Positions 28,312-30,294 of a DNA stretch of 61,218 bases are shown in pieces. How positions within the stretch are numbered: the first letter of the stretch is position 1; each line of letters starts with the position of its first letter. The stretch covers positions 1 through 61,218 of the forward strand of contig DWXI01000142.1 of the NCBI GenBank assembly GCA_019119265.1, given 5' to 3'. Source of the stretch: Candidatus Mediterraneibacter intestinigallinarum. Its GTDB lineage: Bacteria; Bacillota; Clostridia; Lachnospirales; Lachnospiraceae. Made by a program: the position numbers and the translations under genes. The notes below the pieces were generated by a model that was given only the letters and a program-made list of their open reading frames with translations, did not search any database and was not told where the DNA came from.

Positions 28312-28989
28312 TTATGTAAAGATTTTTCTGAGTTTCATGATGGGATTTGCTTTGGCGGACTCTTTGCGGTTTGCCTGTTGCTGGCGTATCAGAGCGTCCA
28401 GCTTGCGGAAATGCTCTTCCTGCTGGCGATCCTTTGCCTGAAGAAGAAAATCCATTTCATGCATGACATCAGTGGTCACGGTACTGCTGATGTCTTTTTT
28501 TAATACATCGTTATTTTCACTTAAGACTTCACGGAAGACATCCCCGAACAATGTACGGATCTGGTCTAGCTTTTCCAGAGGAATCACAACCTCGGACTGT
28601 TCCGGCGCGGCGTCAGACACAGCGGATGTGACCGGAGAAAGCGAAGCAGACGGAGTGTCGTGAATGATGCCTTTCGTTGAGGCTGTTTCATTTGCTTTTG
28701 AATTTCTAGCAGCCTCAGAAGGATTTTCCGGGGGTTCTGCTGTTTTTAGTTTCAGACGTGTCGCTTTCAGTTCAGGTATAAGAGGCTTTAAGTCTCTTAA
28801 CAACATTCCCTCATCTTTGAGTTTTTTAATACAGCGGAAGAGCTGGATATCGTCATTTGTATAATATCGATGGCCCATTTCTGTCCTGCCGATCGTCAGG
28901 CCAAGTTCTTCTTCCCAGTATCTGAGCACATGGGATTCAACGTCAACCTGCTTTGCAGCTTCAGAAATCATGAATCTGACTTCACCCAT
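28312..28989 (-). CDS. MerR-type helix-turn-helix regulator
   Basis: MISEAAKQVDVESHVLRYWEEELGLTIGRTEMGHRYYTNDDIQLFRCIKKLKDEG. Confidence 0.85.
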   Translation of the reverse strand: MGEVRFMISEAAKQVDVESHVLRYWEEELGLTIGRTEMGHRYYTNDDIQLFRCIKKLKDEGMLLRDLKPLIPELKATRLKLKTAEPPENPSEAARNSKANETASTKGIIHDTPSASLSPVTSAVSDAAPEQSEVVIPLEKLDQIRTLFGDVFREVLSENNDVLKKDISSTVTTDVMHEMDFLLQAKDRQQEEHFRKLDALIRQQQANRKESAKANPIMKLRKIFT

Positions 28990-29196
28990 TAATATTTATA
29001 CCTCCTTATATCAGCCTCAATATGCTGAGAGCGGATGTAAAATGCTCTCAACTTTAATGATATTATAGCACAGACAGTCAGGAACTCCCCAAACAATCGT
29101 TCGTCAAATTATTACCCTATTCCACAATAATAATACGTGTTTGTTCCAGAGATTATGTGGTATTTCGGACAGAAAATATCAGATCAAAAAAAGGAC

Positions 29197-29382
29197 GCAA
29201 AAAAGGCGGAACTGCATCGCCATGCCGGCCCGCTCTACCTCAAAGATTTGAATGGATGTAACGGGGAAGGGAAATGCTCGTTCATTGGAACTCCCATTTT
29301 CCTTCGCCTAACATCCAGAACAAATGCTTTTCGGAACGCTCCTGCCTTAATGCATGGCTCACGCAGTTCCGCCTTTTTTTGC
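29197..29382 (+). ncRNA. Structured module, copy 1 (candidate novel RNA/repeat)
   Basis: Closing stem GGCGGAACTGC/GCAGTTCCGCC; GCCATGC/GCATGGC; ATTTG-AAT-GGATGT / ACATCC-AGAA-CAAAT; conserved loop CTCGTTCATTGGAACTCC. Confidence 0.55.
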
Positions 29383-29432
29383 TGGTTCATCCGATCAATA
29401 GATTTTCCATCCGATAATCGCAAGAATCTCTG

Positions 29433-29514
29433 AACAAATACTCATAGAAACGGGAAGAGATCGGAGCCGAATCGATAAAGTGTCCATTTCTTCCCGTTTT
29501 TATGAATGTTTGTT
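29433..29514. repeat. Central hairpin of the palindromic element
   Basis: AACAAATACTCATAGAAACGGGAAGAGAT...ATTTCTTCCCGTTTTTATGAATGTTTGTT imperfect inverted repeat. Confidence 0.7.
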
Positions 29515-29562
29515 TATAGAATATTCTGCGAATGCCCAGAAAATCTGACGTCTGATGCACCT

Positions 29563-29749
29563 GCTGCGAGAAACGGATACTGTATAAGCCATGCATTAAG
29601 GCAGGAGCGTTCCGAATACACCTGGTTCTCCCTGTTAGGGAAAGGAAATGGGAGTTCCAATGAACGAGTATTTCTTTTCCCGTTACAGGGATTCCAGGGG
29701 ATGAGGTAAAGCGGGCTGGCATGGCGTTACAGTATCCGCTTCTCGCAGC
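29563..29749 (-). ncRNA. Structured module, copy 2, inverted (candidate novel RNA/repeat)
   Basis: Closing stem GCTGCGAGAAGCGGATACTGTA/TACAGTATCCGTTTCTCGCAGC; GCCATGC/GCATGGC; CCTGG-AAT-CCCTGT / ACAGGG-AGAA-CCAGG; same conserved loop. Confidence 0.55.
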
Positions 29750-29814
29750 ATTCGTAGTTCAGTCCGTTTTTCTGTTATCTACAGAATAATCTATACAACA
29801 AACACGTATTAAAA

Positions 29815-29856
29815 AGAGACACTGCAGCGGGAATTTCTCCTGCATACAGTGTCTCT
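29815..29856 (-). terminator. Terminator hairpin downstream of the ferredoxin gene
   Basis: AGAGACACTG...CAGTGTCTCT; on the minus strand followed by tttt. Confidence 0.75.
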
Positions 29857-29888
29857 TCTGCTTGTGATCACTTTGCGATTTTCTATTA

Positions 29889-30059
29889 TTACTCTGCTGA
29901 GATAGCGCCTGTAGGACATGCAGCTTCACATGCTCCGCAGTCTACACAAGCTTCAGCATCGATCTCATATTTGCCATCGCCTTCAGAGATAGCGCCTACT
30001 GGACATTCACCTTCGCAAGAACCACAGCTTACGCATTCATCACTAATTACGTGTGCCAT
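29889..30059 (-). CDS. 2[4Fe-4S] ferredoxin, 56 aa (absent from the supplied ORF track)
   Basis: Translated by hand: MAHVISDECVSCGSCEGECPVGAISEGDGKYEIDAEACVDCGACEAACPTGAISAE. Confidence 0.95.
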   Translation of the reverse strand: MAHVISDECVSCGSCEGECPVGAISEGDGKYEIDAEACVDCGACEAACPTGAISAE

Positions 30060-30294
30060 AGTATGTACCCTCCTTTTTTGATTTTCGAAAAAGTATTCTC
30101 CTTTTTCGCTATCCCCATTTTAATACAATAAAAGTGAATATACAAGTGATTTGCGTGTTCTAATTTTAGTACTTATTAGAAAATTTAGAAAAAAATCACT
30201 TTATTTTTCAGAATTTTGGTGTATGATAAAACAATGGTATGAAGTGTTATGACGTAACACTCAGATAAGATGTTTGTATATATGGAGGCATATT

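Follow-up and report, generated by a model that had tools for sequence, protein, structure and literature searches.

The extragenic palindromes of Enterobacteria and Pseudomonas known as REPs, BIMEs and REPINs are the described repeats closest to the element reported here. REPs are simple hairpins of 20-40 bp that carry GTAG or CGTC tags and are linked to RAYT genes, and the wider group has proposed roles in termination, at mRNA 3' ends and in supercoiling. Folded single-stranded DNA serves as a substrate in several such systems, REPs being recognised by RAYTs, IS200/IS605 ends by Y1 transposases and attC sites by the integron integrase. Repeats at the 3' ends of convergent genes are known mainly from enterobacterial REPs. 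Palindromes of this group also occur between convergent ORFs (PMC3733652).

In this study we analyse a 681-bp element at 29131-29811 of a 61,218-nucleotide stretch of DNA (the window) from Candidatus Mediterraneibacter intestinigallinarum. It belongs to a repeat family found across the genus, with a preference for convergent gene ends and a conserved core. On balance we take it to be, probably, a giant BIME/REPIN-like and non-autonomous 3'-end cassette between convergent genes, and its family is a testable system for the way in which repeats come to lie at convergent 3' ends in common gut bacteria.

Architecture and distribution of the element

The element is an inverted heterodimer of two modules, A and B, bounded by TIRs. 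An earlier note on this DNA had described a TIR-bounded inverted dimer with shared sequence blocks, and both its coordinates and its blocks check out; repeat finding pairs the modules with each other at 29298-29367/29579-29648 (80%) and 29211-29273/29671-29733 (75%). The features of the locus, including the two flanking ORFs, are as follows.

28312-28989, minus strand: flanking MerR-type regulator ORF from the ORF list, assigned by eye, its 5' end towards the element
29131-29156, plus strand: left TIR (A side), TAATACGTGTTTGTTCCAGAGATTAT, 26 nt, 88% complementary to 29786-29811 by repeat finding
29137-29441, plus strand: half-element A, one unbroken imperfect hairpin of ~305 nt in the fold of 29131-29455
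29199-29379, plus strand: module A, from the P1 stem GGCGGAACTGC/GCAGTTCCGCC to the apical hairpin; match to covariance model R1 at 29202-29371, 174 bits
29446-29508, no strand assigned: central hairpin AAACGGGAAGA...TCTTCCCGTTTTT, separate from both halves and terminator-like on the plus strand in our own scan, which allows longer loops
29562-29750, minus strand: module B, from the fold; match to R1 at 29575-29742, 168 bits
29786-29811, minus strand: right TIR (B side) from repeat finding, pairing with the left TIR
29890-30060, minus strand: flanking 2[4Fe-4S] ferredoxin-like ORF, read by eye

The arms are longer than the earlier note described, the TIR itself being part of the half-A hairpin, which begins with P0 (the TIR and an inner copy, AATCTCTGAACAAATAC) and continues from P1 to P5. 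Module A folds at -85.4 kcal/mol (z -8.1) and module B at -92.4 kcal/mol (z -10.7), and 0 of 200 shuffles were equally low for either. A consensus terminator tool with a loop limit of 8 listed nothing at 29446-29508. An Rfam search of the whole window gave zero matches at gathering thresholds and, at relaxed E-values, only implausible sub-threshold matches, in keeping with the earlier note, which had recognised no named RNA family and had proposed this search.

The source genome holds nine full-length copies (674-685 bp), the other eight being 84-89% identical to the window copy, and more than 15 further partial copies. The TIR motif AATTYGTGTTTGTT is found there at 35 sites with at most one mismatch, mostly paired at the ends of copies, against a single site for the reversed control, and the TIR-bounded partial copies measure ~180 to 510 bp, several of them with interior deletions. 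One 234-bp element (L031 positions 228-461; G000:C8:827-1060) has the same TIRs around an unrelated interior. By blastn, related DNA occurs in 42 of 58 Mediterraneibacter genomes and in 0 of 298 other genera of Lachnospiraceae. The covariance-model search across Lachnospiraceae that the earlier note had called for was run with R1, made from an alignment (A1) of 25 diverse modules, and it places modules in 44 of the 58 Mediterraneibacter genomes and in 2 of the 298 other genera, where the core lies mostly 9-71 nt past a stop codon. Module number is highest, at 66, in the complete 2.7-Mb genome G315, and a collection of viral contigs gave no match to the core pattern. We therefore regard the element as one copy of a repeat common across Mediterraneibacter and perhaps without prior description; a literature search of limited extent found no account of it, which does not prove its novelty.

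Watson-Crick covariation of the stems and constancy of the loops

The divergence of the stems under preserved pairing, and the constancy of the loops, both put forward earlier from the two modules in the window, are real across the genus. In A1 double changes occur at 34 of 44 stem pairs while the internal loops stay constant, 96% of cells are paired (37-43% in registers slid by one to three columns), and 281 cells are double-changed against 90 +/- 10 in shuffles. The further suggestion that structure is under selection holds in one part, in that constant loops imply constraint. Selection on RNA is not supported, being weakened by the composition of the pairs, and selection on ssDNA, the other form named there, may still apply.

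A selected RNA helix is expected to tolerate G-U and not A-C. Among the roughly 5000 cells of 116 distinct modules we counted 4788 Watson-Crick, 75 G-U and 130 A-C combinations, so that G-U makes up 1.5% of pairs and does not exceed A-C mismatches, and a second set agrees. The SRP RNA of the same genus, used as a control, has 450 G-U (20%) and 2 A-C (225:1), and 43 and 1 respectively in close pairs. Between the members of 74 independent close module pairs we counted 40 double changes and, among one-sided changes, 65 to A-C and 33 to G-T. Because G-U is rare and not above A-C, unlike in the SRP control, we conclude that what is maintained in the stems is Watson-Crick complementarity of DNA, with none of the tolerance of G-U that an RNA would show. 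A choice of strand from the excess of A-C over G-T (p 0.0016) was dropped, the polarised counts of 27 to 18 being not significant. Stem changes of this extent would be accepted as proving a new RNA family, yet their signature here is the opposite one, with Watson-Crick changes only, no excess of G-U and some loops overwritten. Comparing G-U with A-C, with an RNA from the same genus as control, is a simple safeguard when new RNAs are sought by covariation.

These counts bear most directly on the reading that the modules are 3'-UTR domains of a functional structured RNA, with internal loops that bind protein or RNA and a selected RNA fold. It is favoured by stems that covary very strongly throughout the genus around constant loops, by the slow evolution of the core loops and of P2/P3 (below), by the position directly past stop codons and by the detection of the core at similar positions in two other genera. 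We nevertheless judge it quite unlikely, given the G-U content set against that of SRP RNA, the 65 to 33 split between A-C and G-T in independent close pairs and the lack of a strand preference in co-directional contexts.

Some modules preserve direct traces of upkeep at the DNA level. In 7 of 182 the sequence of an internal loop has given way to a complementary copy of the opposite arm: in L003, L004, L013, L145, L172 and L200 the P3/P4 internal loop now carries, on its 5' side, the complement of its 3' side, and in L010, where the apical region is also a near-perfect palindrome, the copying ran in the reverse direction. The overwritten loops are a footprint of template switching, one arm having been copied from the other in some copies, and are a second reason to place the upkeep of pairing in DNA. 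Template switching has been proposed to create and maintain hairpins, with compensatory changes arising from arm copying in replication (Monttinen and Loytynoja 2022, PMC8794818). Since arm copying yields such changes without selection, it weakens the reading of selection on RNA. The double changes among close relatives are mostly isolated and cluster only weakly (p 0.02-0.03), so we do not claim template switching for all of them; as their sole cause it is not established, and selection on the DNA hairpin is the main alternative. Arm-to-arm templating, selection on the DNA hairpin or both would then maintain the pairing.

The rate of change is very uneven along the element. Pairwise differences among 19 full-length copies from two sister genomes reach 0.26-0.33 in the spacers, ~0.2 in the centre and 0.13-0.25 in the P4 stems, against 0.007-0.05 in most core-loop blocks and 0-0.035 in P2/P3, so that most core loops evolve 5-40 times more slowly than the spacers; loop 1 of B (0.127) and the apical block (0.11-0.15) are less constrained. 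Because loops tend to be lost when one arm is copied from the other, the fact that they survive speaks for a function, and we consider the constant internal loops putative protein sites. The two sister species have ~11 sites in common. In the five shared pairs compared, the copies at one site generally resemble each other no more than they resemble copies elsewhere, a pattern that fits either a burst not long before the two species separated or homogenisation at a later time. At one shared site (L009 and L424) the copies are 99.4% identical, compared with ~12% difference elsewhere, and one flank is 93% similar, which suggests recent transfer. The flanks of two other copies (L008/L010 vs L433/L423) are swapped between the sister species, as if the copies had recombined.

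Placement at convergent gene ends, proposed role and mobility

Among 48 distinct dimers, the stop codon of a long sense ORF lies within 130 nt on both sides in 32, on one side in 13 and on neither in 3, and 30 of 52 classifiable solo modules lie between convergent genes; in the window, by comparison, neighbouring ORFs form 44 pairs of which 6 are convergent, a small background sample. Distances from stop codon to element have two peaks, 30-45 nt and 60-79 nt, the second corresponding in TIR-type copies to a stop codon that abuts the TIR (for example [TAA]ATTCGTGTTTGTT), and contact between the two is the usual state in such copies. The neighbours inspected are intact genes, among them, as named by eye, tryptophan synthase alpha, PurD, a DegV-type gene and methionine aminopeptidase. 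The window copy is an exception, lying between the 5' side of the MerR-like ORF and the terminator-like hairpin of the ferredoxin-like ORF (~29815-29858), which ends right at the right TIR. At L142-L145, also convergent loci, the modules of a dimer stand ~1-1.8 kb apart around variable genes, read by eye as a DUF2000-like gene, a CPBP-like protease, a toxin-antitoxin-like pair and a cell-wall-anchored-like protein.

An inward-facing dimer between convergent genes is always 'sense' on both sides, so its orientation is no evidence for a role of the sense strand. The solo modules in co-directional contexts are unbiased in orientation (12 sense, 9 antisense), and orientation was rejected as evidence for such an RNA role.

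The 3' end of the methionine aminopeptidase gene carries the element in G000 and G351, in opposite orientations, a different hairpin family in several species and, by eye, an ordinary hairpin-plus-T-run terminator in most others. This second giant-hairpin family, seen past the methionine aminopeptidase stop codon at L318, L319, L321, L323, L331 and L342 and also at L252 and L267, differs in sequence and has constant loops of its own (TTAAA/TTAAC, AACTCG...CTCAAACAA and CCGAAGTCGCC) between variable stems, with double changes at 46 of 64 pairs and few G-U; Rfam gave no match in the loci searched. In four further loci from four species (L325, L327, L334, L338) a near-perfect and possibly repetitive palindrome, GGGACGTAGTAAAATTGAATTTTACTACGTCCC, directly follows the same stop codon. 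A broader proposal, which we think unlikely, is that at least two giant-hairpin families with fixed internal loops, in Mediterraneibacter and some relatives, are put at convergent stop codons by a novel targeting mechanism and that a dedicated host factor recognises them in the form of folded DNA (or RNA) strands.

Placement and divergence also bear on whether the family could be a decaying MITE free of host function, left at convergent sites because it does least harm there and paired as the relic of a perfect palindrome subject to template switching. TIRs, multiple copies, partial derivatives and, between the two species, a star-like divergence of copies that a single old burst could explain are what such an element would leave behind. 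It is a highly improbable account of core loops that differ by ~0.01-0.05 beside spacers that differ by ~0.3, of stop codons that abut the ends so precisely and so repeatedly, and of a second, different hairpin family at the same site in other species.

Of 44 dimers, 33 have a centre that is terminator-like in one direction or both, and 13 have one that is so in both (16% and 0.5% in shuffles); taken with the location, this suggests a cassette that gives convergent genes a 3' end in common. We infer this role rather than observe it, because 11 of the 44 centres have no terminator and because in one group of orthologous loci, L078-L082, an ordinary terminator separates module B from the stop codon; the P1 stem on the B side has no T-run. 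In the element, two imperfect palindromes of ~305 nt, A and B, face each other across the terminator-like central hairpin; as a cassette it would fill the space between convergent genes, starting at their stop codons and forming their common 3' end. Transcription from either side would run into a large hairpin first and into the central terminator after it, arm-to-arm templating, possibly with selection on the DNA hairpin, would generally keep the arms paired, and a transposase would have moved the element in bursts. The cassette may thus act in termination or in 3'-end protection.

Transposition is implied by the TIRs, the dispersed copies and the expansions specific to species. No target-site duplication was seen when flanks were compared by eye, a comparison made without a true empty site from the same species, and no long TIR pair that could mark an autonomous partner was found in the source genome (258 contigs, 88.5% complete). 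IS630 was rejected as partner, since the IS630-type transposase in two G315 copies (L191, L192) is inserted in the centre and not at the ends. Rpn-type (PF04754) genes lie within or next to G315 dimers at L190, L193, L196 and L200; they were rejected as mobilisers because they do not track module number.

Many genomes of Mediterraneibacter have a RAYT, a REP-associated tyrosine transposase (NF047646, below its cut-off; L388-L396, for example G000:C240:10240-11004), with glyS, the gene for glycyl-tRNA synthetase, on one side and an aminopeptidase gene on the other. It is present in 38 of the 58 genomes of the genus and absent from G315, no modules occur within ~1.5 kb of the gene, and its frequency (~29 of 44 genomes with modules, ~8 of 14 without) is not clearly higher where modules are present; with no association to the modules, it was rejected as their mobiliser. 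A transposase or recombinase that recognises the folded modules as single-stranded DNA would explain stems and loops alike through selection for a Watson-Crick hairpin with fixed bulges. Covariation that is purely Watson-Crick around conserved internal loops, an arrangement in inverted heterodimers like that of REPINs, the failure to see target duplication, amplification that differs between species and a RAYT resident in the genus are consistent with this reading, which we hold to be doubtful, with some chance of being right: the RAYT is distributed as just described, missing even from G315 with its 66 modules, perfect TIRs are atypical of Y1 elements, and the core is still constrained in copies mostly at sites common to two species.

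Comparison with known systems

Like REPs, BIMEs and REPINs the element consists of extragenic palindromes arranged as inverted dimers, REPINs also being often heterodimers with different stems, and we liken its proposed action to the roles suggested for those repeats. Its units, in contrast, measure ~180-305 nt and have several conserved internal loops and TIRs, and its ends read AATTYGTGTTTGTT in place of a GTAG or CGTC tag, and it shows no RAYT association. With MITEs it shares short, non-autonomous, TIR-bounded, multi-copy structure with interior deletions and only short ORFs; it differs in its constrained, structured interior, its placement at the stop codons of convergent genes and the lack of a target duplication seen by eye or of a partner transposase found.

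The centre at 29446-29508 looks similar to a bidirectional intrinsic terminator, a hairpin with a T-run between convergent genes, but is set in a cassette, between giant hairpins whose loops are conserved, and has spread as a repeat. Compensatory changes and perfect arms produced by arm copying recall the hairpins maintained by template switching (PMC8794818), although that paper covers RNA genes and the helices here are without the G-U signature of RNA. Structured RNA in general requires tolerance of G-U far above A-C, which the modules do not have, and unlike attC sites in the one-directional cassette array of an integron the modules are convergent and form no directional array. The element thus resembles a BIME or REPIN in its proposed way of working and departs from them in size, tag and RAYT linkage, and it has the ends of a MITE with neither a known partner nor a visible duplication.
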